Below are positions 29,031 through 57,035 of a stretch of 64,000 bases of DNA, piece after piece. Source of the DNA: a virus; IMG/VR virus record IMGVR_UViG_3300037541_000632, positions 37,265 through 101,264 of that record. One strand, written 5' to 3'. The translations under genes were made by a program, and so were the position numbers. Positions within the stretch are counted from its first letter, which is position 1; each line of letters begins with the position of its first letter. Under the pieces are notes generated by a model that saw nothing but the letters and a program-made list of their open reading frames with translations, searched no databases and was not told the DNA's origin.

Positions 29031-30617
29031 CTAAGCTTTCTCGATGCGGGAGGCGTACTTTACAAACTTAGTTAAGTCTGGAGTTGAGAGCGAACCTTGA
29101 TCGAATGTAGCTTTTAGAGTATTATACTCCGCTAGCTCTTCTGCTGTTAAGGCAGAAGGGCTAGGAGCAGCCTGTTTAACCGGCAGTACGGGTGGAGGCG
29201 TACTAGGCATAGCAGGGATAGTAGGAACTGCAGCAGGTTGTGGCGCTGCAGCTATGTTTGCGCTAGGAAGCGGCGGAGGCATCGGCTTGTTTGGCGGAGT
29301 TGAGAACCCTGCTTCACCTGGTGATTGCCATGCGCTATTAGCGCCCGTAGAGCAGAACATAAATGTATGCCCTAGGTTCTTATTTATAAGATCTTGTACC
29401 TCAGGACGGGTATAAGTAGCATCGTCTATATTACCGTTCATAGAAACCCAGAACCTTTCTGCAGCAGGAGCTGGAGGAGGCGGAGGAGTACTCATAGAAG
29501 CAGGTATTTCCCACGGAGGAGCTTCCGTGGTGTGGACTGGAGTTGGTGCAGGTTTAATCGCAGGAGCTACAGGTTTCTGAACAAACGGATTTACTACCGG
29601 GGGACGGTAGGAATCCATGTCTTCGTCTTCAGCGGAAGCACCAGGGAACACCTTGGCTTTACTTGGACGAGCAGGAACATGTGCGTAATTACTGCAAACT
29701 TCCTCAATAATATTATAAGGAATTGCACCGTCTTCTACGAGGAATTCTACGATCTCCTGAGCCTCCATAATCTTGAATGAAGAGTTGTCACCGTAAAGAT
29801 GATAACGCCCAGCAAGAGCTTCTGCAGGCACAGGGGCCTGTCTAACACCCTTTAGAGATTTATGAGATCCTGTGGTAAACACGAAACCATTAAATGGCTG
29901 CGGATTAGATGGAATAGATGTGGTTTCCACAAATATACCAGTATTAGGATCGGTGATGTCACCATAAAGATAATGAGGCCAGTTAGGATCAATGGTCTGC
30001 TCATGCGCAGGACGCCATTCGGATAACTTACCAGACAGATCTTCAAACGCCTTTTGCGAAACATCGATCAAATAATTTCTAGGATTACGGTCAACTCCGT
30101 TTGTGCCGTAGAAATTAAATACATAACGACGCTGAGAATAAGGAATAACAATCTTGGCATCTTTCTTGTTTTCAGGACGCTCAGTCAAAGCGCGGATGCT
30201 AGGATCATCGTGTTTCTTGGCGTAATTACGAATATCCTGCACCGGATCAATGAGCTCAGGACCGCGCGATACACTATGAGTGAATCGCCGAGTGGCCGGG
30301 CTCAGGAAAGAAACCTGCTTATTACCGAACCAGGAGTAGGCAGCCACAACAGCAAAAAAAGCGTTGAGTACTGGCTGATTAGTTTCTGAATCGATGTTGT
30401 CTGCATTGCGATAAGGCATCCAAGAATTAAGGAATTCTGCGTCTGCCTGCGACAATGCGTAATTAAATGCTGGTAGAATTCTACCAGAATAAGCTTTCTT
30501 CTGTGTGGGAGTACCACCATAAACGCCTGTTTTAAAATAACCACCCCAGTAGCTATTTTCTTTTTCGGCTTTGAGTTGCTTTTGAATTTGTGAATAATCA
30601 GTAGGAATGAATGACAT
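29031..30617 (-). CDS. Probable ssDNA-binding/replication accessory protein
   Basis: 528 residues. The N-terminal 330 form a globular domain with no motif I can name (start MSFIPTDYSQIQKQLKAEKE). A Pro/Ala-rich linker follows, then a small domain near 390-440 (ERFWVSMNGNIDDATYTRPE and on to SAWQSPGE) that resembles a GYF_2 domain, a peptide-binding module. More Pro-rich sequence and a helical end follow. The place between the polymerase and the RecA-like gene, and the flexible tail, suggest an ssDNA-binding protein, but this is inference. Confidence 0.6.
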   Translation of the reverse strand: MSFIPTDYSQIQKQLKAEKENSYWGGYFKTGVYGGTPTQKKAYSGRILPAFNYALSQADAEFLNSWMPYRNADNIDSETNQPVLNAFFAVVAAYSWFGNKQVSFLSPATRRFTHSVSRGPELIDPVQDIRNYAKKHDDPSIRALTERPENKKDAKIVIPYSQRRYVFNFYGTNGVDRNPRNYLIDVSQKAFEDLSGKLSEWRPAHEQTIDPNWPHYLYGDITDPNTGIFVETTSIPSNPQPFNGFVFTTGSHKSLKGVRQAPVPAEALAGRYHLYGDNSSFKIMEAQEIVEFLVEDGAIPYNIIEEVCSNYAHVPARPSKAKVFPGASAEDEDMDSYRPPVVNPFVQKPVAPAIKPAPTPVHTTEAPPWEIPASMSTPPPPPAPAAERFWVSMNGNIDDATYTRPEVQDLINKNLGHTFMFCSTGANSAWQSPGEAGFSTPPNKPMPPPLPSANIAAAPQPAAVPTIPAMPSTPPPVLPVKQAAPSPSALTAEELAEYNTLKATFDQGSLSTPDLTKFVKYASRIEKA

Positions 30618-30618
30618 A

Positions 30619-33600
30619 TCAGTTGGTTTTGTAATTTTTATCTTCTAACAATTTAGTTTCATCTTTAGTAGGTTTCGCGGACCAGCGGTAACAAAACAGC
30701 TGATCAATAGGATAGTTCATTTTTCTTCCGTGGTACTCCCATGTGTTCTCATCCGTCATAAAGAGCTGGTGCAATTGTGCAACCTTAAATCGTTCTTCAA
30801 GAGGACAAAGAGTAACAACGGAATCATATAAAATAATCAATGGTCTAGCCTTCATGTTTAACTTGATGTAGGCATCTAGCAACCACTTACCTGCACGGGC
30901 AGCAGTGGCAGCTACACTTTCCTGCATCGGGAAGTTTCGGGCTTCTCGACCCATAGACTTAAACAGACCCATAGTCAAATGCTCATCGATATCGTCCAAG
31001 TATTTGGGGTCATGCGAAGAGAAGTGACGAATACGTCCTGAAGATGCCCGGTAATATCCAGGCTTCTCTGGAACGCGTTCCATCTTTATCAGAAAGTCCT
31101 GAGCAACTGGCTGCCGCTTTTCAAGAGCTTTAAGCAACCGCTGACCAGTACCTTCCTCGGGTTTCTTTCCTGTATCCTGTTCAATTTTACGCTCTAGAGT
31201 AGAAGCGGAGGCACCGTAAGCTGAGTTAGATATGAGTACACCATTAGCGGTAAACCTATGTCTAGGTCCTGCGTTAATTATATCGTAGACAGGCTCTTTT
31301 GTGAGCTTAAAACCCTTTTCTTCGAGTATGCTTCTAACTGCGCGTCCTCCATCCCCTGTCTCATCAATCTGTGAGTAGTAGCTACGCTGAGCTTTAAGCC
31401 AAGCCTCTCTATCTTCTGACTGATTGACTCTAACTTTGCGGATGATTTTTCCCAGGCGGCTACTAACTGCTCGTCGGATAAACCTGAGCGAATCAGTTTT
31501 CTTACAGTGCTGTCTGCAAAGCCTATACCTAAGCGAGAGGCGCGCTGTAAAGCAGACTCTTCGCGTTGCCTGGCTTTTCGAATACTCAGAGTTAACTCTT
31601 TGTGCTTGTTTACATGTGCTATTACATCCTGATCGGTTAATCCTTTCCGATACAATTTCATTATCTGTTTCTCGCCTACACTCAAGTCTAGATTCAATTT
31701 TATTAGATTTCTGGCTTGTAATACTTTCGCATTTGATAGTATTGCATTCCGACTTTTTAATTCTCCGGACTTTACTTTCTCGAATATCTCTTTTTCTGTT
31801 ACACCCATTTGAAGCATGTTCCAAATGGTCCGCATGGCCACTGGTAAATTCGGGTGCGTAGTTATTATAGCTTCTGCGCGCGTACGAAAGGACCATTTTG
31901 ATGCTCTTGTATTCCGTAGATTCATCAGCCGCGTTACAAGGCGCAAATTTTCTTTCGAGTAATGCCCGGAATTGTCTATACGATCGAAATCCAAACCTTT
32001 GAAGTTTGTAGTCGGCCATAGGTCTAAAGCCCATTGTACAAAGTCGCCTAGAGAAGTGAATAATACTTTTATCCCTCGACCTTTGTAATTTACAGAAGAT
32101 ACGTGCGTGTCTTTGTAGCAACGCTGAATCATTGCGTGATAACGGGCTCTTAACATTTTGGCTCTGGGGTCGGAACAGCGGAAGGGTTTGTTCCTCTTTG
32201 ATTTTCCAGCCGTTGATAGCGGCATCCCCGAAGCAACATTTATTTCCGTTAGCAAGCCAGATGACGTGATCTGGAGTTGCCGCCAGACCTTGATATCTGA
32301 TTGTGAATCTATTTCCTTGGTACTGTGTTCCTTCATGACTTACCCACTCTAAGCCATCCCACAGCATATCGTCAAGTGATATGTTAGTAACGAGTTTTGG
32401 CCCTGAAGGCGTGCGTACGTAGGAGTCTTTAGATATACACGAAAAATTTCCTACCTTAGCAGCACCACGGTCTTTTTTATCATCAAGCACTTCTCTTGGT
32501 TTAACATGAACCATCTCAGCTAGAGACCAGTGAAGGTCTTGCTTTGGATGTTTCAAAGAACCATCGTCTTTTCTTATTAAGGAGGGGTCATCCGGAGATA
32601 TGAGGAGGTGTTTGTATTCTTCCTGTGTGGAAGCAGGAAATACTTCATGAGGGAAAGACAGACGAACTTTCTTATCGTCTTTAGTCACTGCAAAATTTAG
32701 ATCAGGATTACAAACAATATCAATCAGGTTCTTATCGCCTGAGATAAATGCTAGTCCTCTAATTTCTGCAGTCTGATAGTCCGACTCAACGAAACACCAA
32801 CCTTCAGGTGCCTTAACACAGCTACGTATAGAAGGCACCTCAATCTTGTATTCGCCTTTAGCATCCTTAACAATAAATTTATCAAACTCTTCTGGTAATT
32901 CTCCGCGTTCTTTTATTTTACCGAACAGGTCGGATATACCATTGGAAATCATAGAGTTAACGTAGCTAGGCCAGTTTAGCGAGTTGGGCTTCCAACTGCG
33001 AGGCCGTCCAGTTTCCGTAGTACTCATCTGACCATGCACGCGATTATCGCTGCATAGATAAAAATGAAGACCGTTTTCTTTTACAACATTACCGTCAGCA
33101 TCTATGTCGGCTTCCTTGAGGAAAGCTTTGCAGATATTACCCACAGCATTCAGCTGTAGAAGTTTGCGTAAAATCCTATCGTTATTTTTTTCTGACAGAA
33201 TCTGTAGCGTTTGTTTATCTACAGCCGGATTATAATTCTTCTGCGCCTCAGGAGGCATAGACTTAATCTTCTCCCATGCCGTAGCAGGAAGTCCTTTCTC
33301 TTTGTTGCTAGTCGATTTAATCGGCTCATACCCTTTAACACTAAATAGCCAGCGTTTCAAATGTGCAGCAGATCTAATATTAAAATGGGCGCTATCAATG
33401 AAATGATCAAAGATAGCTTTCAGCTTGGGTACATCATCGGGCTTTTTGGCTGCTCCTTTGAGTACGGCCCAAGCTTGCGCATGCTCGGAATTAACAACTA
33501 AAGAAATGAACTCTAAATATTTTTCAGATGCAAGCTCAGGAGGTAGCCTGGTTGCAAATGCCATGAGAACAAAGTTCTTAGCTTCCGTATGAATATCTTC

Positions 33601-35019
33601 ACGTAGGATAACTTCCATTTTGTCTCTAGCAAATGTATATAACACTCTAAGCTCGTCCATTGTAGTGACATCCATCGGAAGTCCAACCAAGGCGAAGCTT
33701 ATAAACACATCCGTAACAAACGGATGGAAAATATCATTATAATAATCTACAAGATCTTGTATTTGCAGACTACGATAAATAAATGGCCAAGCACGGAATA
33801 CTGTGTCCACGTCCTTGCAAGCATATGGAATAAGTATGTCGTCAGGTATAGCACCGTAACCACCGTCTACCATTAAAGCTTTATTTTGCTTAACCCACAA
33901 AACAAGCTCCAGGTCATAGCGACCCAGGTCCGTGTATTTCATGGCTATACGTTCCAAGGAAAGGTCTTCAGATTCATTAGCTGTCTGCTGAGCAAACTCA
34001 GTATCGAATATACACTTCTCATACCAGTTTAGGCCTAGCACATGATGTAACCAAGGAGCATCCGCAGCAAAGTGATGCCCTATATATTTAACATGTTCCT
34101 GATCTAACCATTCAGAAAGTATAGCACCAGCTTCTTTATAAGATACATCAAATACATAGTTACCTTTGTCATCCATCCAGCGGACGTAACAAGCTTTTCC
34201 TGGAGCCCAGCAAAACTGGGTGCTACGCAGTTTACCATCGATATGATTGTTACCTGCCCACTCGCAGTCAACACTGATTACATTAAAACTATTTTGTTTC
34301 CAATTACTAACCACGCGTTTTAAATCTGCAGAGTTAGTAATTGTCTCGTAATCCAAAGCAACTCTATTTGTATTCAGATTGCATATGTCCCTATGCATTC
34401 TATTTATTTCCCGGGCCTCTGTGCGGAACTTCTCTATGTACTCGGGATTAGTTACAAGCTTATAAGTGTCGTCTATTAAATATAATTTAGCTTTATATTT
34501 TTTATTGTAAAACCAGCCACTCTTAGCATCGCTGAGAGATAGCTTAATGTCGGTAAGCAAATCAAAGATAGGCTTACCAATGCACACAATAATTTTAGGA
34601 CTAACGGCTTGTATTTCTTCCTCTAAAGATGGAAGTGCCCAGTTAACAATTTCCTTTGGTATCTTAACTCTTTCATTCTTTGGTAAAAGCCATTTAACCA
34701 AAGATGTGTAGTAGCACTTATATAAGTCTATACCCTCTTGATTAAAGATGTCAGAGAATATTACACCAGCATCTGAACGAAGGTAACGAGGCTGTACTCT
34801 AACACCCTCATTACCGTCCCTTCCTTTAATAAATCTACTAGCCTCCTGCGGTGAAATGCAAGAAGAGATAAACATTATATCTGCAGGACTTACACCCTGC
34901 CCCGCCACAAATGTTACACCATTATGCCCACGTATAGATCCAGTTTTTTCAACTAGAGATAATGGCGGTAAACTATAGTCAGGAACAGGTATTACCTTGT
35001 CCTTCTTTTGATTCTCCAT
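30619..35019 (-). CDS. Family A DNA polymerase fused to UDG-like domain, with intein
   Basis: 1466 codons. Residues about 25-200 look like a family-4 uracil-DNA glycosylase fold (ADIMFISS; LEEEIQAVSPKIIVCIGKP). A 3'-5' exonuclease follows: D251-x-E253 (ISVDCEWAG), HHFAADAPWL, and YACKDVD. The PolA palm has motif A D747 (ESDYQTAEIRGLAFISGD) and motif C as LYDSVV (D1399). Motif B is cut by an intein (861-1265): KVGNFS then, after splicing, SAYGAS. The ligated enzyme is about 1061 residues. It copies phage DNA with the primase and helicases encoded upstream. The intein is double-coded (see 31278-32336). Confidence 0.85.
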   Translation of the reverse strand: MENQKKDKVIPVPDYSLPPLSLVEKTGSIRGHNGVTFVAGQGVSPADIMFISSCISPQEASRFIKGRDGNEGVRVQPRYLRSDAGVIFSDIFNQEGIDLYKCYYTSLVKWLLPKNERVKIPKEIVNWALPSLEEEIQAVSPKIIVCIGKPIFDLLTDIKLSLSDAKSGWFYNKKYKAKLYLIDDTYKLVTNPEYIEKFRTEAREINRMHRDICNLNTNRVALDYETITNSADLKRVVSNWKQNSFNVISVDCEWAGNNHIDGKLRSTQFCWAPGKACYVRWMDDKGNYVFDVSYKEAGAILSEWLDQEHVKYIGHHFAADAPWLHHVLGLNWYEKCIFDTEFAQQTANESEDLSLERIAMKYTDLGRYDLELVLWVKQNKALMVDGGYGAIPDDILIPYACKDVDTVFRAWPFIYRSLQIQDLVDYYNDIFHPFVTDVFISFALVGLPMDVTTMDELRVLYTFARDKMEVILREDIHTEAKNFVLMAFATRLPPELASEKYLEFISLVVNSEHAQAWAVLKGAAKKPDDVPKLKAIFDHFIDSAHFNIRSAAHLKRWLFSVKGYEPIKSTSNKEKGLPATAWEKIKSMPPEAQKNYNPAVDKQTLQILSEKNNDRILRKLLQLNAVGNICKAFLKEADIDADGNVVKENGLHFYLCSDNRVHGQMSTTETGRPRSWKPNSLNWPSYVNSMISNGISDLFGKIKERGELPEEFDKFIVKDAKGEYKIEVPSIRSCVKAPEGWCFVESDYQTAEIRGLAFISGDKNLIDIVCNPDLNFAVTKDDKKVRLSFPHEVFPASTQEEYKHLLISPDDPSLIRKDDGSLKHPKQDLHWSLAEMVHVKPREVLDDKKDRGAAKVGNFSCISKDSYVRTPSGPKLVTNISLDDMLWDGLEWVSHEGTQYQGNRFTIRYQGLAATPDHVIWLANGNKCCFGDAAINGWKIKEEQTLPLFRPQSQNVKSPLSRNDSALLQRHARIFCKLQRSRDKSIIHFSRRLCTMGFRPMADYKLQRFGFRSYRQFRALLERKFAPCNAADESTEYKSIKMVLSYARRSYNNYAPEFTSGHADHLEHASNGCNRKRDIRESKVRRIKKSECNTIKCESITSQKSNKIESRLECRRETDNEIVSERINRSGCNSTCKQAQRVNSEYSKSQATRRVCFTARLSLRYRLCRQHCKKTDSLRFIRRAVSSRLGKIIRKVRVNQSEDREAWLKAQRSYYSQIDETGDGGRAVRSILEEKGFKLTKEPVYDIINAGPRHRFTANGVLISNSAYGASASTLERKIEQDTGKKPEEGTGQRLLKALEKRQPVAQDFLIKMERVPEKPGYYRASSGRIRHFSSHDPKYLDDIDEHLTMGLFKSMGREARNFPMQESVAATAARAGKWLLDAYIKLNMKARPLIILYDSVVTLCPLEERFKVAQLHQLFMTDENTWEYHGRKMNYPIDQLFCYRWSAKPTKDETKLLEDKNYKTN
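31225..32439 (-). other. Polymerase intein
   Basis: Intein of 405 codons from Cys861 to Asn1265, with Ser1266 as the +1 residue. Block A CISKDSYVRTPSG; block B includes TPDH (H918). The C-terminal block reads EPVYDIINAGPRHRFTANGV then LISN, so the penultimate residue is Ser rather than the usual His. Between about 945 and 1240 the frame is open, but its product is Ser/Arg/Cys-rich and unlike protein, because that DNA carries the HNH gene in another frame. Confidence 0.8.
31278..32336 (-). CDS. HNH homing endonuclease nested out of frame in intein
   Basis: 352 codons on the same strand as the polymerase but in the +1 frame. The true start may be M1 (32336), M38 (32225) or M61 (32156); the first 40-60 residues overlap real intein coding. 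Clear HNH-type signature: RYHAMIQRCYKD (65-76), NYKGRGIKV, LDFDRIDNSGHYSKENLRLV (115-134; D118, H125 and N130 as likely key residues). The tail has four HTH-like repeats: NMLQMGVTEKEIFEKV, KLYRKGLTDQDVIAHV, KLIRSGLSDEQLVAAW, RLMRQGMEDAQLEAYS. It ends at 31278, 12 bases inside intein block F. Probably cuts intein-less alleles. Confidence 0.85.
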   Translation of the reverse strand: MKEHSTKEIDSQSDIKVWRQLQITSSGLLTEINVASGMPLSTAGKSKRNKPFRCSDPRAKMLRARYHAMIQRCYKDTHVSSVNYKGRGIKVLFTSLGDFVQWALDLWPTTNFKGLDFDRIDNSGHYSKENLRLVTRLMNLRNTRASKWSFRTRAEAIITTHPNLPVAMRTIWNMLQMGVTEKEIFEKVKSGELKSRNAILSNAKVLQARNLIKLNLDLSVGEKQIMKLYRKGLTDQDVIAHVNKHKELTLSIRKARQREESALQRASRLGIGFADSTVRKLIRSGLSDEQLVAAWEKSSAKLESISQKIERLGLKLSVATTHRLMRQGMEDAQLEAYSKKRVLSSQKSLSTI

Positions 35020-36339: not shown

Positions 36340-37617
36340 TCAGTTTATATGTTTGTATACCAAATGAAGTGCGTCGTCATAGTCCATTTCACCGACATCC
36401 TTGTATTGCGCAGGAATGTCAGCAAAGACAACTTCAACACTTCTCTCACTCATCAATTGTTTAATTCTATTAGCCATCTCTTGACCTGCTTTGTCGTTGT
36501 CGGCAACGACGATTAGTTTTTTGAATTTACTAACCAGCAAGTCAGCGTGACGCTCACTCATATACTTACCAAGAAGAGCAATACATCCTGGACCAATACG
36601 AGCAGCATCTAAAGGACCCTCCACAATACAAGCTGTAGGTTTTCTAAGCCCCAGCGTTTTATTGAAATTGATAGCAGCATCTAAACCCATCAGAGTTTCA
36701 TTACGCTGCATACCAAAAGCGGTCTTATATTTGGAAGGTTTCCACTCAATAGTGTAGCCCTCTAACTTAATTTCTATCCCGGGAATTGGTTCCCATTTAC
36801 CAGTCTCTGCATTCTTCTGTTCAGTGGCTACCCAGCTATTTTTATAAGGGTGAAGGTAGTATTTTAAATCACCTTCTACACGCTCAATAATACGAGCCTG
36901 CCATCCGACCTGCACGCCATTAATAAAAGAATAGAAAACTATTCTACCTTGTGGCGTGTCTTTGAAATCAAGTGGAAGACGCTTGTAGAAAATACCCTTT
37001 TCGGCACTCTCCGGACTTTCCCGTGTACAGAATGAACACTTGAATTGCTTATACAAAAGATCCAAGTCATACCTTCTGTCTTTTAAATAAACGACAGCAG
37101 GATGAAATGGTGGTAAATCAGTGATCGGAATCACCGCCCCTGGATCCATTGGAACCAGATTACCATTTCCATCATCAACCAAACTAGCGGCCCGCTGAGT
37201 AGCAGCCTGAATAATTTTAGAAGATATATTACGTAACCCTCTCTTTTCAAGAGTAGGATACTTTCTCTCATTCAGCAAATCAGATACCTTATACTTGGTA
37301 TTAGTTTTGTGACAGACGGCACTGTAATCTTTAGCTAGTTCATCTCTTAAGTAACCATGCTTTTGAATCCAGTCGTCCGTCTGCCTATATCTGGAAGCAT
37401 TTACAGTTAAATGCTTACTTTGTATTTCCTTTCTTCCGTCTGTTTTTAAACATTCAGGAGAAGGTAAATAAATATGAAAACCGTTGGACTCGTTACGAAT
37501 TACCGCAGGTCCGTGCAAGCGGCTCAAAGCTTCCGCAAGTATCAGAATGTCCCTCGGTATTGTGCTCGAGGAAAGACCCTGCGTCGTGTTGACTTCCGTG
37601 TGCATAAAGATGGTCAA
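36340..37617 (-). CDS. DNA primase with TOPRIM domain
   Basis: 425 residues. A two-cysteine hook KCSFC (193-197) precedes the catalytic TOPRIM: ACIVEGPLDAARIG (E333, D337) and VVADNDKAGQE (D373-N-D375), the acidic E and DxD pattern that binds Mg2+. TOPRIM primases make RNA primers. There is no helicase domain, as in T4 gp61; the helicase is encoded at 39015. The start overlaps the 3' end of the upstream gene by 125 bases in another frame. The N-terminal PRDILILAEALSRLHG looks genuine, so this overlap is probably real coding by the primase. Confidence 0.8.
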   Translation of the reverse strand: MTIFMHTEVNTTQGLSSSTIPRDILILAEALSRLHGPAVIRNESNGFHIYLPSPECLKTDGRKEIQSKHLTVNASRYRQTDDWIQKHGYLRDELAKDYSAVCHKTNTKYKVSDLLNERKYPTLEKRGLRNISSKIIQAATQRAASLVDDGNGNLVPMDPGAVIPITDLPPFHPAVVYLKDRRYDLDLLYKQFKCSFCTRESPESAEKGIFYKRLPLDFKDTPQGRIVFYSFINGVQVGWQARIIERVEGDLKYYLHPYKNSWVATEQKNAETGKWEPIPGIEIKLEGYTIEWKPSKYKTAFGMQRNETLMGLDAAINFNKTLGLRKPTACIVEGPLDAARIGPGCIALLGKYMSERHADLLVSKFKKLIVVADNDKAGQEMANRIKQLMSERSVEVVFADIPAQYKDVGEMDYDDALHLVYKHIN

Positions 37618-38959
37618 AGAAATTTAACTGGCTAGCAAATATATCAAGCTTCCTATTGCGGATTTTATTTATAAACAATGTGCATCTCAGATTATCAACA
37701 GCATCACGACGATAACTAGCGAAGGCAGACCAATCAATGAAATTAAACTTTTTAAAGTTAATTAGGAAGTCATGTACAGCTAGGTTAGCAGTAATTTCAG
37801 CAAAAAGAGTTTGTTCAAATTCGACAGCTAACAACTTAAGAATACTAGGTTTATAATATTTAGAAAGACTTAAAGCTACAAGTTTGGCATATACAGGAAT
37901 TGAATATGATTTAATAAAATTATAGTAATCAGTGTAAGTCAGTTTTTCAACATTCGAACCAAGCTCTTTTAGAATTTTAGAAGCTAGTGCGATTTCTTTG
38001 AAGACATAGCTCTCAGTAGTGCCCTCGGACATCTCATCGATCTGGTCCTTGATGTAGTCAAGTTCGCCGGGTCGAATAGTGTCGCAATGTTCTTTGAGAA
38101 TCTCATCAAAATTACGAATCAAGTCTAAAAGACTGAAAGCCAATTGTTTAGACTCAATAATTTTACAAATCTTAACGACGGATATTTTATTAATTACACC
38201 TGAATCAATCCTTCTAGCTGCACTTCTAGCTGCTGCCGGGGTAAGCATTTTGTCCTCTGATGCTTCTGCAAGTCTCTCGATAAGATCGTATTCCGTAGGG
38301 TTACGTTCCGGGTTTGATAGACGGTCAAAACATCCAGCCTCAGTGTAATGCGTTCCTTCCAAGCCATTTCCCGGAGCACCATCTTCATGGTTCCGGGAAA
38401 CTGCTTGATGTCGCAAAGATATTTTTTCTACAGGTTCGAATTCTTTTTTCAAGGCAGTCCCGGAATCAGAAATGGCTTGGTTTTCTTCTCTGATTTCCAG
38501 AGAACCTTCAGGAGAGTTAATACTCTCCAAAAGGGATGCGCGTCTAGCGCGTCGCATATTCGCATGTATGAGCTGCATCTTTCTGCGCGCCTTATCTCCT
38601 GCTACGCGCCAGTACGAACCATGATTGCGACCATGACGCACAGCTAGAAAGTCTTCGATCTTACCTTCTCTTTTAAGTTCAGCAAAGATGTCATCGGCTT
38701 TGCGTTCTCTAAAATTTAAACGATTACATACCCAGACTTTGGATACAAATTTACCAAGGTCATTCATGTGTTTAATTAACTCAAACACTTCACCTTTGGT
38801 TCTTTCTTCCAAACTAGCGTAACCAAGTTTTATGGTTAGCTCTGGTATATCCTTCTCGGATACAGTCACCATATGATCAGGTATATTGATCGTATTGTGA
38901 GCAACAGGACGACGTGGACGGCGCTCAGTCTTAACAAATTTCGCAGGTTTCCAAAGCAT
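37493..38959 (-). CDS. Hypothetical replication-module protein
   Basis: 488 residues from ATG 38959; a longer frame to 39136 overlaps the helicase and looks non-coding. A basic N-terminus (KFVKTERRPRRP) is followed by a winged-helix-like stretch (VFELIKHMNDLGKFVSKVWV), a charged linker and a long helical C-terminal domain. The last 40 residues (His/Gly/Cys-rich) lie inside the primase start and may be non-functional. It lies between the helicase and primase genes; a loader or initiator role is possible but unproven. Confidence 0.6.
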   Translation of the reverse strand: MLWKPAKFVKTERRPRRPVAHNTINIPDHMVTVSEKDIPELTIKLGYASLEERTKGEVFELIKHMNDLGKFVSKVWVCNRLNFRERKADDIFAELKREGKIEDFLAVRHGRNHGSYWRVAGDKARRKMQLIHANMRRARRASLLESINSPEGSLEIREENQAISDSGTALKKEFEPVEKISLRHQAVSRNHEDGAPGNGLEGTHYTEAGCFDRLSNPERNPTEYDLIERLAEASEDKMLTPAAARSAARRIDSGVINKISVVKICKIIESKQLAFSLLDLIRNFDEILKEHCDTIRPGELDYIKDQIDEMSEGTTESYVFKEIALASKILKELGSNVEKLTYTDYYNFIKSYSIPVYAKLVALSLSKYYKPSILKLLAVEFEQTLFAEITANLAVHDFLINFKKFNFIDWSAFASYRRDAVDNLRCTLFINKIRNRKLDIFASQLNFFDHLYAHGSQHDAGSFLEHNTEGHSDTCGSFEPLARTCGNS

Positions 38960-39014
38960 AAGGGTCCAGATGTTAGCAAGGCGCAATGGGTGCGCAACAC
39001 AAATTTGCGTTTTT

Positions 39015-40529
39015 TTACACCCAAGGCGACACTCGCTGATACTCGTACTCTCTCTTGTATGGAACAGCTTTTGCTTCGCTAAATCTAGACTTGGAAATGA
39101 AGAAGAATTGCTTGGTGGCGTACGTGGCAGTATCATCTAACTCTGATCCTACCCGGTAGTCTTTGCGCTTCTTATTCTTTTCTTGATCAATCTGTTTGGC
39201 ATACTCTTCCGAGTACAAGCTGGATATACCTATGATGGCAGAATAATTTCTGCCCATAGTTTTACACTCTGATAAATCTTGAGAATCTATTTTAACTTTG
39301 TTTACGGAAGCAGGTACTGCCTGAGCAAAAGCAATAGCCACAAAATTTCTTTTACGGCAAAGCTCTTCTAGAGCGTCTGCAGCGGCCTGGTATATGTGAC
39401 GTGTTTTATCGCCTGCCTCAGCCATAGAGCCAAGCGCGCCACCAATCCAGTCCAGTATTACGTAGTCTACTGTTTTTCCGCTACCCTTCTCATATGTATC
39501 AATTTCATCTTCAATCTTTTTTATCATATTTATATCAGCTTGTTTTTGGAAGTTACCCCAGTTAATGAACTGGGCGTCCCCCGAATTTAAGCTGAAAGCT
39601 TTGTCTCTGAATTCCAGATAACGTTGCAACTCATTGGGTGTGAGCTTGTCCTTAAAAATACCTTGGCTGATAGTTCTGTGTGGAATACTACACTTGTTGG
39701 CGACTATACGACGATACAGTTCATCATGCTTTTGCTCTGTTGAAATGTATAACCCGGAAGCTCCATTTATATAAGAGAATGCGCTAGCCAACTGGCATGC
39801 TACAATTGTTTTACCAGAGCCTGTACCTCCGATAAATAAATAGGCATGTCCTTTTCTAAACGATGAGATAGTTTCATTCAGTTTAGGAATGTCACAATCC
39901 AGTGTTTCAACTAGAGCTTTATTAGGATCATCGAACGCATCAATATCAGACAGTTCAATTCTGTCCGGGACATTGACTAGAAGCTTACCGCCGTCATCCA
40001 GCCTATTAATAAGCGTGACATCAGTTTCACATAATAAAGCCAAGTCGTCTAAATTAACACCGAGCAAAGAAGCGCTGTTGATAATCTTCTTAGCTCTGGT
40101 GTTCTTTAGATAATACGGTATGCCTGTATTGACCAGATATGCCGTATCTTCTCCGCTAGGAAAGGGTGCAATGACTTCTTCAAAGTATTTAATAATATCT
40201 GGAATTTCAGAAAACCCTACAACTTCGCCTTTACTAGCACGCTCGTTTAGAACTGTTTGTAACTGCGGAGTACCTATAGGTCTGAATATGCTTTCGCTAG
40301 CACCCTCGAATAAACTATTATATCCACGAATGGCGTCATAGATTATGTTGTGATAATGCTCTTCGAAGTCATCTGAATGTTTATCTTTAAACCCAGATTT
40401 TAAACACAGTACTGAGCTGAATTTTTTGAAACTTTGAAGGTTAGTTCTACAAATGGCTACAATAGCTTGTTCAAACCATTTATAATTCTTGTCTATATAA
40501 ACTTCTAATTGTTTCGGGCATTTAGCCAT
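39015..40529 (-). CDS. DnaB-like replicative helicase
   Basis: 504 residues. The helical N-terminal domain resembles DnaB/gp41-type collars. The RecA-fold motor has Walker A GGTGSGKT (234-241), a strand GLYISTEQKHDELYRRI, Walker B DYVILDWIGG, and the sensor-like FVAIAFAQAVPASV. DnaB-family rings unwind DNA 5'-3' ahead of the fork, partnered by the separate primase here. The start is 25 bases inside the upstream gene. Confidence 0.8.
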   Translation of the reverse strand: MAKCPKQLEVYIDKNYKWFEQAIVAICRTNLQSFKKFSSVLCLKSGFKDKHSDDFEEHYHNIIYDAIRGYNSLFEGASESIFRPIGTPQLQTVLNERASKGEVVGFSEIPDIIKYFEEVIAPFPSGEDTAYLVNTGIPYYLKNTRAKKIINSASLLGVNLDDLALLCETDVTLINRLDDGGKLLVNVPDRIELSDIDAFDDPNKALVETLDCDIPKLNETISSFRKGHAYLFIGGTGSGKTIVACQLASAFSYINGASGLYISTEQKHDELYRRIVANKCSIPHRTISQGIFKDKLTPNELQRYLEFRDKAFSLNSGDAQFINWGNFQKQADINMIKKIEDEIDTYEKGSGKTVDYVILDWIGGALGSMAEAGDKTRHIYQAAADALEELCRKRNFVAIAFAQAVPASVNKVKIDSQDLSECKTMGRNYSAIIGISSLYSEEYAKQIDQEKNKKRKDYRVGSELDDTATYATKQFFFISKSRFSEAKAVPYKREYEYQRVSPWV

Positions 40530-41379: not shown

Positions 41380-41456
41380 TTATATATTTCCTCAGTTGAT
41401 AGTGGGTCACTTATTTCCCATGGATGACGACCTCCGTCAAGATAATCGTTGTTTAT
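41328..41456 (-). CDS. Possible 42-aa gene with no standard start codon
   Basis: The frame from ATA 41456 (overlapping the helicase TAA as ATATAA) to TGA 41330-41328 reads as a plausible protein (NNDYLDGGRHPWEISDPL, then STEEIYKWD). It fills a stretch otherwise without a gene and ends in an ATGA junction with the inner start of the next gene. No ATG, GTG or TTG precedes it. It may use AUA, be a -1 frameshift extension of the helicase, or be chance. Confidence 0.35.
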   Translation of the reverse strand: MNNDYLDGGRHPWEISDPLSTEEIYKWDVSLKSYQKKNQDGQ

Positions 41457-43936
41457 ATAGCTTTGGATTTAAACGAAGTCTCAAGCTCGTTATAGCTATT
41501 TACGTAAATAATTTCATAACCTTTTTCAGTGTAAGCTTTGACTCTAGCCATAGACTCTCTGTATAAAGCTTGTATCCCATTACCCGTACCAGATCCCGGT
41601 ATAAATAAGAAATCAAAAACAACGCCACATTTTTTGTTAGGACGGACCTCTGCAAGTCTTCCAGGTTTCTGGATTGTAGATGTATTTGCACCTCCACCAC
41701 TTAAATTAATAAGAGCGCGCACATGATTGAACGTAACGCCCTGTGCGTAGATTTCGCTAGCCAGGCATCGTTTAATTTCATCACCACGCATTCTTTCCAT
41801 GAGCTCTTCTCGTTCTGTTTTAGTCATGCGTTTAGCCATGGCAATAGTACCATCCTGCCCAACCCAGTCTAAAAAGTATTCAGCTTGTTCTTCATTTTTA
41901 ATAAAGAGCAGAGTCTGCCACTCTTGAGGAAGAAGCTCATGACAAATCCAACGTACAGCTTTTGCTACACGTTCTCCTTTAAATAGATGAGTCTTGTATG
42001 CGCGATCACGATCATCAGCATTACCTGCCAAAGGTATAACAATCATGTACACAATCAGAGGACACACAGCGCCTTCTGCTACAGCCTCTTGGAACGTTCG
42101 CTCCGCAATTACAGGACCAATCAGTGCTTCGATAAGAATGTCACGCTGATCAAACCTGCCTTTAAGTGTAGCACCAAATCCAATACGCCGGGCCTTATCA
42201 AATTTAGTCAGCTCAGGTAAACGACTGTCTGTGACACAGGCGTGAGGCTCATCAATCAATAATAATTTACAAGCGGATGCATCACATTTATGCAAGCTAT
42301 CCATACTCACGACATTGATGTCATCGCATGGACTCTTAGTAGAACCAGCGCCAATAAGTTTTACCTCTCTATGCGGGAGTGCTTCTTTAACATCCTCATA
42401 AAGCTGTTTAACTAGATCTGCACCGGGAGCAGTGACTACAGTGTGAACATTTGGAAATGCTCTCAATGTATTTTTAATTAATGTCGTATTATGCGTAACG
42501 GTGTAATCTCCTAGAAGAAATAGACCGTCAGGACCTTCTAATTCAAATCCATAGTAATCTCCACGACATAAATACTCTGTAGTAAAACCTGTTATTAAAG
42601 GATTTACTCTTAAATTTTTATTAATGGCTTTTTTCCTGTGTAACTTAACAGGTATATCTGATAAGTTACCGGATATATTTACATCGTAGTATGTTCTTAT
42701 AATTTTACTTTGCGCGCACTTGGATCTCTCTTTAACTGTTGCGCGAAAGCCTAATCCTCTACATAGGCTAGCTATATCATTTGCTAGGTTAAAAAGCTTA
42801 GTAGTAATAGAGTAGCAACCAACGCCTAAGCCAGGTCTGGGATTGTTAACACAACCGTCAGAATCTATTAAACCCGCTAATACCTGCAGCCGAACATCCC
42901 TGCTGTTAACAGCATAGACAGGTAGTAAAGTTTTACATTTATTTACTACTGAGCTTTTGAAAGTATGCCGCCATATATTTAAGATACTTTTATTTTTAGA
43001 CCTTACTGAATAGTATGAAGCTTTGTTGTTTTTAATTTCTTTTTTACTTACAACTAGTCCAACTTTATCGGCTTCTATCATCCAGGCCTTTGCACATATT
43101 TCATCTGCGGAAGTTAGGATGGGCGCACTTGTATGCCCATCGCCCAACCAAAGACCGTAGCAATAAGGATCTACATCTACTTTTTTTTCTGGATAACTAA
43201 CAGCTCTACGCACAAGCTTATGCAAGTGCTTAAATGTTTTGCTCTGTGTGTGATATTGCTGCGCTGTAATTATGAATTCTTTACCGTCTAAGTTGGGACT
43301 TTTATTACCGCCCTGTTTAGTTCTGTACACAAGCAATTTATGATCGCCAGTACATACAAAGCTTTCACCTTTATTGGGCGTTACACGGTATAGGTCATCT
43401 ATTCCGCTGACTACACCTACTACTTTACGAGGTTTAGAATCATGCCCCATTACCAAATCCCCATCTCTTATATCCTGAACAAATTTAACTGTTCCATCGA
43501 ACATAAGAACTTTAGTATTTTTCCCTAGGCACTTTCCGTACCGCGTGGGCGCACCAAGTAAGCCGCTGCAGTTGGTGCTTAGGAATGAAGTCAGCAGTTC
43601 TTGCTGCTTAAATCTAAATCCACACATTAAATCCAACCGAGGTTTAGGAAAGCCTATGCGCATGTCATAGAACTTTACATCCCAGCCGTTCTCTTCTAAA
43701 AATGTTTTTACCTTAAGCCACATACCCTGCATGGTCTGAATAACATTGTATCCATTCTGCTGGTTTATGACTTTATATAAAGTATTCACAGTTACCTTGG
43801 TAACTTTTTTCCATGGGCACTTCGGATCCTGCGCTAGCTTCTTTTCCCGATAAGTTAAAAACTTTTCCAATGCAGGACTGGACGGGGCAATAGTCAGCAC
43901 AGAGTCATCCCACATGAGATGTACTTCTTTACTCAT
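41453..43936 (-). CDS. UvsW-like SF2 helicase with intein
   Basis: 827 residues from ATG 43936, which sits next to the stop of the small membrane gene; a frame to 43975 is less likely. N-terminal domain, then Walker A GAPTRYGK (128-135), interrupted by an intein (136-483), resuming with TT. Motif II is LLIDEPHA (DEPH 562-565); then GFGATLKG and a C-terminal motor domain with LLFIKNEEQAEYFLDW. UvsW-type enzymes remodel forks and branched DNA. The P-loop site is a common intein refuge because it cannot be lost without killing the enzyme. Confidence 0.8.
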   Translation of the reverse strand: MSKEVHLMWDDSVLTIAPSSPALEKFLTYREKKLAQDPKCPWKKVTKVTVNTLYKVINQQNGYNVIQTMQGMWLKVKTFLEENGWDVKFYDMRIGFPKPRLDLMCGFRFKQQELLTSFLSTNCSGLLGAPTRYGKCLGKNTKVLMFDGTVKFVQDIRDGDLVMGHDSKPRKVVGVVSGIDDLYRVTPNKGESFVCTGDHKLLVYRTKQGGNKSPNLDGKEFIITAQQYHTQSKTFKHLHKLVRRAVSYPEKKVDVDPYCYGLWLGDGHTSAPILTSADEICAKAWMIEADKVGLVVSKKEIKNNKASYYSVRSKNKSILNIWRHTFKSSVVNKCKTLLPVYAVNSRDVRLQVLAGLIDSDGCVNNPRPGLGVGCYSITTKLFNLANDIASLCRGLGFRATVKERSKCAQSKIIRTYYDVNISGNLSDIPVKLHRKKAINKNLRVNPLITGFTTEYLCRGDYYGFELEGPDGLFLLGDYTVTHNTTLIKNTLRAFPNVHTVVTAPGADLVKQLYEDVKEALPHREVKLIGAGSTKSPCDDINVVSMDSLHKCDASACKLLLIDEPHACVTDSRLPELTKFDKARRIGFGATLKGRFDQRDILIEALIGPVIAERTFQEAVAEGAVCPLIVYMIVIPLAGNADDRDRAYKTHLFKGERVAKAVRWICHELLPQEWQTLLFIKNEEQAEYFLDWVGQDGTIAMAKRMTKTEREELMERMRGDEIKRCLASEIYAQGVTFNHVRALINLSGGGANTSTIQKPGRLAEVRPNKKCGVVFDFLFIPGSGTGNGIQALYRESMARVKAYTEKGYEIIYVNSYNELETSFKSKAI
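42488..43531 (-). other. Intein in helicase P-loop (LAGLIDADG)
   Basis: 348 codons from Cys136 to Asn483 of the helicase, +1 residue Thr. Block A CLGKNTKVLMFDGTV; block B CTGDHKLL; LAGLIDADG endonuclease motifs GLWLGDGH and VLAGLIDSDGCV; end block FLLGDYTVTHN with the normal His-Asn. A standard class 1 intein with its endonuclease in frame, in contrast to the polymerase intein. Confidence 0.9.
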
Positions 43937-43937
43937 A

Positions 43938-44081
43938 TTATAAACTTTTAATGCCTTCGTAAATAGCCCAAGCAATTGCGGCTAATGTAATCAAAATTAG
44001 AACCTGCACATACCAAGGAGGCGGTGGTTCTGGTTGGTCATCGTATCCCCATGGTGAACCTGTATCAAATCCTTCAAACAT
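43938..44081 (-). CDS. Tiny membrane protein, 47 aa
   Basis: 47 codons from ATG 44081-44079 to TAA 43940-43938. Polar, proline-rich N-terminus (MFEGFDTGSPWGYDDQPEPP) and one hydrophobic helix (about 25-41, VQVLILITLAAIAWAIY). It fills exactly the gap between the ABA-sandwich gene (44085) and the helicase start (43936), 1-3 bases from each, which supports a real gene. Function unknown. Confidence 0.7.
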   Translation of the reverse strand: MFEGFDTGSPWGYDDQPEPPPPWYVQVLILITLAAIAWAIYEGIKSL

Positions 44082-54128: not shown

Positions 54129-57035
54129 ATGTACATTGATTTAAACTGGGAAGTCAAAACAAATGCGGAATTTAGGTATAAGCTTAAAGCTTTAACTGAT
54201 GATATCAAACGATTAGAAAAAGAAACTGACGGAGACCCGCACGGTAACGACAAGATTGCTAGTAGGATAATAGATATTTATAGACTTTGCAAATACAATG
54301 CAGGGCTGCTTGTTCCTTACTTCTTTCCTCAGTACCCATACGATAAGCCATTATCATGCACAGCAAGACCATATTCATTTGCAATGTTTCATATGCAGAT
54401 AGGTGGATTTTTAGCGATTAGAGCGGGCAGACAGATTGGGAAAGCGCTTGAAGAGAATGAGCCAGTTTTAACTCCGAGAGGTTATAGCCCCATCAAAGAT
54501 CTAGCTGTTGGTGACACAGTATTTGATGGCAAGGGCAAGCCGACAATTGTCACTGGAGTATTTCCGCAAGGACAGAGAGAAATATTCCGTGTAACTTTTA
54601 CAGACGGAGCATATGTAGACTGCGATGAAGAACACCTTTGGTTATGCGCGAAAGCTGGAAGAAAATTCAATGTGAAAACACTTAAAGAAATTCGGGCGCG
54701 TAAGGGAGGAGACAATCCCTCAAGTGATCAAGGAATGCGCATTCCTTTGACTGCGCCAGTAGAGTTCCCCGCTAAAGAACATTATATCAGACCGTACATA
54801 TTGGGGCTGCTTTTGGGCGATGGTGCGTTAACAATGGGACACACTGCCGGATTCACAACAGCAGATTCAGAGCTGGCAGAAGCTTTTGACTTGCAAGAAG
54901 GAGTTAATCTTGTGCATTATGCCAACTACGGTAAAAGATTAAATAAGGACAATAAACGACATGGCGTTAATCCATTTCGAGATGAATTGCTGCGGTTAGA
55001 TTTAATTCATACAGCCGAGCATAAGTTTGTCCCCAAAGAATATCTTTTTGATTCTGTCGAAAATCGCATAGAGCTACTTCGTGGGCTGTTGGATACAGAC
55101 GGTAGTATATATGGAAAGTGTCAAATTGAATTCTACTCTGTAAGTAAGCAGCTAGCAGAAGATGTGCAATTTTTAGTGCATTCGCTGGGCGGTACCGCAA
55201 GAATAAAAACAAAACAAGGCTACTACAAAAAAGATGGCGAGCGTATTAATTGTAAGATTTGCTATCGCGTAAAAATTAAAATCCAAGACATCAATCCTTT
55301 TAAATTAAAAAGGAAAGCCGACAAATTTTATAATATAAAATACAGTAGAACTAGAGTAATTGCAGCTATTCGCAGTTTAGGCTTTTCTAATGCTATTTGT
55401 ATTAGTGTCGCTTCTCCAGAAAAGACATTCTTAACGCGAGACTGTATTGTCACGCATAATTCCACTTCTTTAGGCGCGAGGCAATTGATATATTCGCATA
55501 TCATGGCAAAGAGACGCAGTATGTATGTAGTACCGCATCAATCATTCTTGGATACGTATGCAAACCGTGTCCGGGAAATGGAGAGATCGTTTAGATTTTA
55601 TCAGGTACATAAAGAGTATAGGCAGAATTTAAAATACAAAGAGTATCCAAATGAGTCTGTAATTCAGATGGTTAAATGCCTAACGGATACACAACAGGCC
55701 CGAGGCTCTACAGTAGATGAAGTTCTGTATGACGAAGCCCAACTCCTAGACCCAGACTTCCTTCCTGACATCGAGCAGTGCCAAAAGGCATCTAGAATGC
55801 CTACTACTATTTACGCAGGCACATCCACCACTACAGACTCATTATTGGAAACTAAATTTATAGATTCTAGTCAAGCAGCGTGGTTGATCAGAGCTCCCGG
55901 TTATAATTCAAATAGCGCAGGGGCTGGTTGGTTAAACTGTTCGGATAAAGATGACATTCTTAAAGCTATTCAGCCTCAAGGACTTACTAACCCGGCTACT
56001 GGTAAAGTAATCGATGTAACCGATGGTAGATTTGTACACCAGATTCAATCTAACTTTGATCAGGGATATTTAGGATTCCATATTCCTCAGATCATTATTC
56101 CTGAGTACGCCAATATTCCGCAGAAGTGGATGGAAATATGGAATGCTTTCCAGAGCTACGACATTAAAAAGTTCCTGCAGGAAATTCTAGGTATTCCTAC
56201 AGAGGAAGGTATGCGTGAAATTACAACACAGGATTTAAAGAACATATGCGTTCTTCCTGAAACACCAGAGACATTAAAAAGTTTATCAGGTCCTTCCCAC
56301 GGACGTTACAAATATACAGTTTCAGGATGTGACTGGGGTGGTTCTGATTACAACCCCGCCTCTAAAACTAAAGTGTCTTATACTGTACATGTTATCCTCG
56401 GTATTTGCTGGGATGGTAGTATAGAGATTATTCACATCAGGCAGTACTCCGGTATGGACTATAGGAGTATTGCTAACCAGATTTGTGAAGATCATAAGGC
56501 TTACAGTTGCGTGGGTATTGCTTCTGACTTTGGTGTCGGTGCTGCGTATAATATGCTACTGCGTGAGAATCCTATTATTCAACCAGAACGCCATTTCATC
56601 TTTGGTTATGTAGGGCCTCAGTCAGCTCTTATTAAAGCGCCTAGTGGTGGGCTTGGTTGGTTCAACCAGTACTCATTAAATAGAACCGAATCTATTACCA
56701 GTCTGTATCAGGCTATTAAAAGCAGGAGATTTAGATGTTACTCCTGGGAACTCGCACAAGAACGCCTTCTTGAATTACTAAACCTATATCGCGTACCGAC
56801 AGAAACAGTTGGGGGTAACTCAGGTTTCAGATATCAGCGTCATGGTTCTAAAGCAGATGATACATTGCACGCTATTAACTTTGCATTTTGTCTTGCCAGA
56901 ATCATTATAAATGAACCTATCATTGAAGACCCGGCCTTAACGCATATGTTCCGAGAAACGTTTAATCCTTCTCAACAGACTAAATTCTTTAATCCTCATG
57001 GAGGATTTGATTTAGGAGGAGCTATTTCAGGTTAA
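54129..57035 (+). CDS. Terminase large subunit with class 3-type intein
   Basis: 968 codons. N-terminal ATPase: IRAGRQIGK (97-105), interrupted by an intein (106-444), resuming STSLGAR, so the spliced P-loop is GRQIGKST. Walker B-like LYDEAQLLD, then a coupling TIYAGTSTTTDS. The RNase H-like nuclease begins with the acidic CDWGGSDYN, followed by GIASDFGVGAA and KADDTLHAINF. The ligated protein is about 629 residues. It pumps and cuts concatemeric DNA at the portal. It lies on the plus strand, opposite almost everything else, and its stop overlaps the convergent methyltransferase stop by TTAA. Confidence 0.9.
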   Translation: MYIDLNWEVKTNAEFRYKLKALTDDIKRLEKETDGDPHGNDKIASRIIDIYRLCKYNAGLLVPYFFPQYPYDKPLSCTARPYSFAMFHMQIGGFLAIRAGRQIGKALEENEPVLTPRGYSPIKDLAVGDTVFDGKGKPTIVTGVFPQGQREIFRVTFTDGAYVDCDEEHLWLCAKAGRKFNVKTLKEIRARKGGDNPSSDQGMRIPLTAPVEFPAKEHYIRPYILGLLLGDGALTMGHTAGFTTADSELAEAFDLQEGVNLVHYANYGKRLNKDNKRHGVNPFRDELLRLDLIHTAEHKFVPKEYLFDSVENRIELLRGLLDTDGSIYGKCQIEFYSVSKQLAEDVQFLVHSLGGTARIKTKQGYYKKDGERINCKICYRVKIKIQDINPFKLKRKADKFYNIKYSRTRVIAAIRSLGFSNAICISVASPEKTFLTRDCIVTHNSTSLGARQLIYSHIMAKRRSMYVVPHQSFLDTYANRVREMERSFRFYQVHKEYRQNLKYKEYPNESVIQMVKCLTDTQQARGSTVDEVLYDEAQLLDPDFLPDIEQCQKASRMPTTIYAGTSTTTDSLLETKFIDSSQAAWLIRAPGYNSNSAGAGWLNCSDKDDILKAIQPQGLTNPATGKVIDVTDGRFVHQIQSNFDQGYLGFHIPQIIIPEYANIPQKWMEIWNAFQSYDIKKFLQEILGIPTEEGMREITTQDLKNICVLPETPETLKSLSGPSHGRYKYTVSGCDWGGSDYNPASKTKVSYTVHVILGICWDGSIEIIHIRQYSGMDYRSIANQICEDHKAYSCVGIASDFGVGAAYNMLLRENPIIQPERHFIFGYVGPQSALIKAPSGGLGWFNQYSLNRTESITSLYQAIKSRRFRCYSWELAQERLLELLNLYRVPTETVGGNSGFRYQRHGSKADDTLHAINFAFCLARIIINEPIIEDPALTHMFRETFNPSQQTKFFNPHGGFDLGGAISG
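54444..55460 (+). other. Class 3-type intein in terminase P-loop
   Basis: 339 codons, Ala106 to Asn444, +1 Ser445. It lacks the usual Cys/Ser at position 1 (ALEENEPVLTPRG). It has the three residues that define class 3 inteins: Trp171 in block B (CDEEHLWLC), Cys424 in block F (NAICISVASPEKTFL) and Thr442 before His-Asn (IVTHN). LAGLIDADG motifs GLLLGDGAL and LLRGLLDTDGSIY are intact. Class 3 inteins start splicing from the internal Cys rather than residue 1. Confidence 0.85.

Follow-up and report, generated by a model that had tools for sequence, protein, structure and literature searches.

Genes and features at the locus

The window analysed here (64,000 nucleotides, positions 37,265 to 101,264 of the IMG/VR record IMGVR_UViG_3300037541_000632) carries a DNA polymerase I-like gene whose open frame includes a predicted intein, and within the intein lies a second gene in another frame (Table 1). 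The polymerase gene has Pfam matches to DNA_pol_A (7.9e-16), DNA_pol_A_exo1 (1.5e-13) and UDG (3.3e-8). Its UDG-like domain is N-terminal to the exonuclease (window 34500-34780, minus strand), an arrangement also present in L022 and L024 (L numbers designate the contigs and loci compared in this work). The HNH ORF occupies the +1 frame of the polymerase, and the two ORFs overlap by 1058 nt with both frames open; this overlap is unique at such size in the window, the runner-up being 362 nt. Conditioned on the HNH protein and on the codon use of the phage, the probability that the polymerase frame would be open by chance is 10^-20.6, and in the equivalent relative frame of the other window genes the longest open run is 78 codons, with ~12 stops per 100 codons. 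A chance open frame is rejected on both counts. The preliminary description of this DNA, made from the sequence alone, had taken the long stop-free polymerase frame to be improbable by chance and the +1 frame on the same strand to encode a convincing HNH protein, and both claims are borne out. Elsewhere in the window, a 547-codon ORF without a Pfam match (37493-39136, minus strand) overlaps the ends of both neighbouring genes by ~120 nt each.

Table 1. Features of the polymerase locus, in window coordinates
Feature	Position	Strand	Evidence or remarks
DNA polymerase I-like host gene, intein included	30619-35019	-	1466 codons, open
Polymerase domains: UDG-like, 3'-5' exonuclease, family A polymerase	30619-35019	-	Pfam
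Predicted intein of 405 codons, read in the polymerase frame; interrupts the conserved motif B region of the polymerase between NFS and SAYG	31225-32439	-	Cys1 to Asn405
N-terminal splicing half, blocks A and B	32185-32439	-	Cys1 32437-32439; TPDH 32266-32277
C-terminal splicing half, blocks F and G	31225-31344	-	YDII from 31287; terminal Asn 31225-31227; then Ser
Overprinted putative HNH endonuclease gene, +1 frame, 352 aa and stop	31278-32336	-	PHROG match, model, dN/dS (omega) 0.13 vs L004
HNH core, HNH residues ~58-145	31902-32165	-	Conserved residues
Four helical HTH-like repeats, HNH C-terminus, residues 164-352	31281-31847	-	Alignment, model helices
Likely HNH start: ATG in host codons CAT GAA, weak SD-like GAGTGGG upstream	32334-32356	-	

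The intein

Conserved residues and a modelled fold identify the polymerase insert as a class 1-like Hint intein that is predicted to splice. It has a nucleophile at position 1, a TxxH motif in block B and a terminal Asn followed, in the window, by Ser. Across 34 inteins C1, T55, H58 (of TxxH), D386, G391 and the terminal N405 are invariant, and the residue that follows is C, S or T. In the AlphaFold model of the intein, residues 1-80 have pLDDT >90 and the C-half (~340-405) is mostly >85; confidence is confined to these two splicing halves, with pLDDT <50 for almost the entire middle. The best PDB matches of the model by Foldseek are themselves inteins (gp41-1, Npu DnaE and Ssp DnaB; lowest E 6e-4). 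The insert is absent from L002 and L003, where the site reads NFSSAYG, as for an in-frame insertion missing from some alleles. The window intein has no match to the intein models of Pfam or NCBIfam, curated models that form a non-exhaustive set, and TIGR01445 matches 2 of the 34 members, weakly. The assignment is kept because the splicing residues and the Hint fold outweigh this non-match.

The splicing blocks flank the HNH gene on both sides in the polymerase frame, as had been described, within limits (31225-32439) slightly wider than those first proposed. Between the two halves the polymerase frame does read as the Ser/Arg/Cys-rich non-protein that the earlier reading had made of it (R 15%, S 12%, C 4.6%, all at the low model confidence given above). 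That reading was also correct in assigning in-frame endonucleases to the helicase and terminase genes: conventional inteins with in-frame LAGLIDADG domains are present in these genes (window 41453-43975, minus strand, and 54129-57035, plus strand).

The HNH reading

The product of the +1 ORF is a putative HNH homing endonuclease. Compared with HNH families, the 352-residue frame matches the PHROG HNH endonucleases phrog_3377 (the best, E 1.1e-21) and phrog_374 (7.9e-20), and its structure model has a mean pLDDT of 82, with the first 48 residues disordered. Conserved core residues are R65, R72, Y84, R87, G88, D118, R119, G124, Y126 and N130. The HNH motif reads DRIDN...GHY...N, in which D118, R119, Y126 and N130 are invariant, and the classical first His of the motif is Arg throughout the family. 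Foldseek comparison of the model with the PDB gave no meaningful match, and neither did the alignment profile match any PDB sequence.

The four HTH-like repeats noticed at the outset are supported by the alignment and by helices in the model. They begin at HNH residues 164, 218, 271 and 314 and are common to the window, L004 and L008; relatives beyond these have one such segment or fewer. An N-terminal zinc ribbon is present in most relatives, L008 included, and has been lost in the window and L004.

Distribution of the layout

The same layout is found in L004, a phage contig whose HNH is 88% identical to that of the window, and is common to the related phages L004, L006, L008 and L015. It also occurs in the records of three phage isolates, Gardnerella phage vB_Gva_AB1 and Streptococcus phages Javan113 and PhiSdyV1524, in which the gene is annotated as DNA polymerase and nothing more, and in bacterial genomes, with cultured bacteria, prophages and complete chromosomes among them. 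A scan anchored on the HNH alignment identified 61 distinct loci at which a longer open host frame encloses an HNH; the HNH is in the +1 frame at 58 and in the +2 frame at three. A second scan was anchored on the intein alignment so that selection was not on the HNH, and it parsed 74 loci, a count without de-duplication. Here the HNH is out of frame in 60 (57 in +1, three in +2), ten are mini-inteins of 122-168 residues and four are of neither type; an HNH in the intein's own frame was found in 0 of the 74 parsed inteins. Most of the host genes that were identified encode family A DNA polymerases; one encodes a DEAD/ResIII helicase.

A second, unrelated family, first seen in L008, has an HNH_3 nuclease in canonical inteins; of its 14 loci, 9 have the nuclease out of frame, every one of them in +1. 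Since this family has an equivalent layout, the layout arose more than once. An out-of-frame HNH is the rule in the intein family of the window and recurs in a second family. The preliminary description had an intein gaining an endonuclease in another frame; the intein is indeed real and its HNH does lie in another frame, but this is no one-off event, with ~60 loci and a second family now known. Related inteins with and without the insert can likewise be compared, as it had proposed, with L002 and L003 lacking the intein and the mini-inteins lacking the HNH.

Several members have further peculiarities. A single polymerase gene of L008 (L008:5995-12441) contains three inteins: an apparent in-frame LAGLIDADG-type intein, one with an out-of-frame HNH_3 and one of the window type. 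In L006 (8578-9534) and in L015, a related intein with an out-of-frame HNH is inserted one codon upstream of the insertion point in the window (NF|C...N|SSAYG). In the +2-frame minority (L237, L247, L256, L050, L070 and L109), the intein ends in ...IVHN or IAHN.

Selection on the two readings and the choice of frame

Comparison of the window with L004 separates the two readings of the shared DNA. In the HNH frame dN/dS is 0.13, as against 1.78 in the intein frame over that DNA, and within the intein frame it is 0.21 in the N-terminal and 0.11 in the C-terminal splicing half; the exteins have values of 0.03-0.05. Other close pairs agree in direction. The HNH reading is under purifying selection, and the value of 1.78 across the HNH implies that the host frame is selected for the absence of stops and not for its sequence. 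Selection for both readings, as originally suggested, therefore holds in that both are kept open, but over the shared DNA amino acids are conserved in the HNH reading only.

How the host frame is kept open can be read from the codons of the nuclease. In the +1 arrangement, host-frame stops arise only where an HNH codon ending in T stands before AA, AG or GA. At such risky junctions the pooled members, which are related sequences and not independent, have 0 T and 1058 C, whereas the other junctions of these genes have 2031 T and 1601 C; the zero is partly by construction, because members were chosen for an open host frame. The telling point of these counts is that T remains common away from the risky junctions. 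In the window alone the corresponding figures are 0/27 at risky junctions and 68/43 elsewhere (p=7e-10), and family relatives outside such inteins have no T/C bias and ~10 stops per 100 codons in that frame. A change from NNT to NNC is always synonymous, and thus stops can be removed from the host frame of a +1 HNH with the nuclease unchanged. The opposite phase has no such remedy for a Met codon that precedes K, N, T, I or M, where a stop is unavoidable; Met pairs of this kind are present in 45 of the 58 +1 members and in none of the three +2 members. We infer that +1 dominates because stops in this phase cost nothing to remove, whereas those of the opposite phase can be unavoidable.

Mobility and decay

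Comparisons with close relatives carry possible traces of movement. First, the window and L004 differ far less at synonymous sites in the N-terminal splicing domain (dS 0.14) than in the N-extein (1.49). Second, at third positions identity to L004 is 0.80 beside the insertion site and declines to ~0.5 further upstream. Third, the intein-free L002 has the reverse pattern, with third-position identity of 0.33 beside the site and 0.6-1.0 beyond it. The dS contrast and the identity gradient, which are based on small counts, match the trace expected of transfer with co-conversion and suggest that such a transfer took place.

Signs of decay are also present. In PhiSdyV1524 (L013) a stop replaces one Trp codon of the HNH, with the host frame still open, and in the mini-inteins the HNH is gone and the intein remains. 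Related phages with a broken HNH frame beside an open polymerase frame, which the preliminary description would have counted against its reading, do therefore occur, and the evidence from intact copies stands. Neither L013 nor the mini-inteins undo the overprinting, because ordinary decay of homing genes fits them.

These observations bear on the possibility that the HNH of this phage is itself a decaying passenger, inactive or untranslated, with the host frame open because the gene is essential. Homing genes often decay once fixed; the zinc ribbon and the strong Shine-Dalgarno (SD) start have been lost in the clade of the window, and the nonsense mutation of L013 provides a precedent with the host frame open. 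Nevertheless, the HNH has a dN/dS of 0.13 and a 352-codon frame intact between the window and L004, the core residues are retained, and there are the signs of recent transfer, all of which make a decaying passenger unlikely.

Start and translation of the HNH

In 40 of 57 members a conserved ATG lies within the host codons Tyr-x-Gly-Leu and is preceded by an SD-like sequence. Pairing of the SD at this ATG averages -9.7 kcal/mol, the best being AAGGAGGT, and the SD overlaps the (K/R)EV codons of the host. The host codons themselves are biased here: the Tyr codon at the start is TAT in 39/46 versus 189/352 in the exteins (p=5e-5), and the Glu codon at the SD site has GAG counts of 29/12 versus 1006/1023, a difference of moderate significance (p=0.011). 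The clade of the window has lost the conserved start and has instead an ATG 42 nt upstream, shared with L001/L004, L006, L008, L015 and L072, for which pairing in the window is -6.4 kcal/mol versus a gene median of -0.9 in this SD-poor phage. Among mini-inteins without an HNH the ATG is kept in five of nine, a small sample in which some resemble recent deletions.

Internal initiation at such an ATG appears from these sequence features to be the best-supported route to the HNH protein, with +1 frameshifting less likely. Programmed +1 ribosomal frameshifting would fuse the HNH to the polymerase N-terminus and the N-half of the intein, and the HNH is in the +1 frame of its host in ~95% of cases, just as a +1 shift would require. 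That phase bias is more simply explained by the genetic code, however, and many members have stops in the HNH frame shortly before the conserved ATG, which in most members has an SD-like sequence ahead of it. The HNH_3 family moreover has a different N-terminal context, and frameshifting is accordingly quite improbable.

Interpretation

Two other explanations have next to no probability. A pair of sequencing or assembly frameshifts, with the HNH truly in frame with the intein, had been foreseen as the obvious artefact, and two compensating errors would account for one locus, but the layout is shared by independent viral contigs, phage isolate records and bacterial genomes including complete chromosomes, with no in-frame member found, and the artefact is rejected. 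A self-splicing intron with an HNH gene in place of an intein, for which it can be said that phage group I introns frequently carry HNH genes, is rejected just as firmly, since no Rfam match exists over 30500-33200 even at an E of up to 1 for group I or II introns, and the host frame is open throughout with the splicing blocks and the Hint fold conserved in it.

The locus is probably a mobile intein on which a homing endonuclease, translated separately, is overprinted, a prediction founded on the architecture and its breadth, the selection pattern, the splicing residues and the modelled Hint fold. A single mRNA would have two readings. Translation in the polymerase frame would yield a precursor composed of the N-extein, one Hint half, ~250 residues of meaningless disordered filler, the other Hint half and the C-extein, from which the intein would be expected to excise itself by splicing. 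A second ribosome would initiate internally, at the ATG that lies between blocks A and B, and would produce, from the +1 frame, a free-standing HNH nuclease. This nuclease would be expected to cut intein-free polA alleles, leading to copying of the element. Selection on the one stretch of DNA would then be dual, acting on the amino acids of the HNH through homing and on the stop-free polymerase frame through the essential gene. It is likely, too, that the locus belongs to a widespread and unannotated intein class whose homing endonuclease is in every case overprinted, with its own ribosome-binding site in conserved intein codons, at least two origins and a phase set by the NNT/NNC equivalence.

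Inteins are usually seen as one polypeptide with splicing and homing domains, and here the two functions would share DNA and not protein; the dosing and the evolution of the nuclease would therefore be separable from the essential host protein. Predicted inteins with an out-of-frame HNH are widespread in phages and prophages and are unmarked in the databases checked. They are mostly missed by Pfam and NCBIfam models and lie hidden in genes of isolates labelled 'DNA polymerase'. The theory of overlapping genes gains a clean test-bed in this natural collection of >60 long overlaps on one strand, each pairing a conserved protein with a frame that needs only to be free of stops. Such inteins may also be natural cases of tolerance to arbitrary inserts of 150-250 residues, a property of use in protein engineering.

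Relation to known systems

A literature search for out-of-frame HNH genes returned only the ShiLan domain and papers citing it; a 2025 preprint by Gosselin et al. (10.1101/2025.01.02.630785) lay outside the scope of that search. The ShiLan domain, the closest case in print, and the Pacc40 insertion occur in actinobacteriophage DNA methylases (Arsenault, Gosselin, Gogarten 2025, PMC11855218). Like the polymerase insert, ShiLan has an out-of-frame HNH and leaves the host frame open, and its distribution is disjunct and homing-like. Unlike the polymerase insert, which is a full predicted intein, it lacks splicing domains, and its authors take it for neither an intein nor an intron; it also has a GTG start with no detectable RBS and a methylase host (PMC11855218). 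Most relatives of the polymerase intein have an SD and an ATG. The Gosselin et al. preprint, which comes from the same group and concerns actinobacteriophage inteins of 'non-canonical architecture', is cited in PMC11855218 for the frequent overlapping frames of actinobacteriophages and for HNH-like methylase insertions. As represented there, it may describe a similar layout, and it is the main prior-art risk.

Conventional homing inteins, with an in-frame LAGLIDADG or HNH endonuclease (Dalgaard et al. 1997), resemble the polymerase intein in that Hint halves flank the endonuclease and in that insertion is at conserved active-site motifs, in genes of DNA metabolism. In these inteins, however, the endonuclease is within the intein polypeptide, whereas here it is a separate reading of shared DNA.

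Fractured genes with split inteins, reportedly described by Dassa and colleagues in 2009, are said to have a free endonuclease gene between the two halves and to rely likewise on separate translation. In those systems the host gene is physically broken and splices in trans, whereas the polymerase of the window is encoded in one open frame and its intein would be expected to splice in cis.
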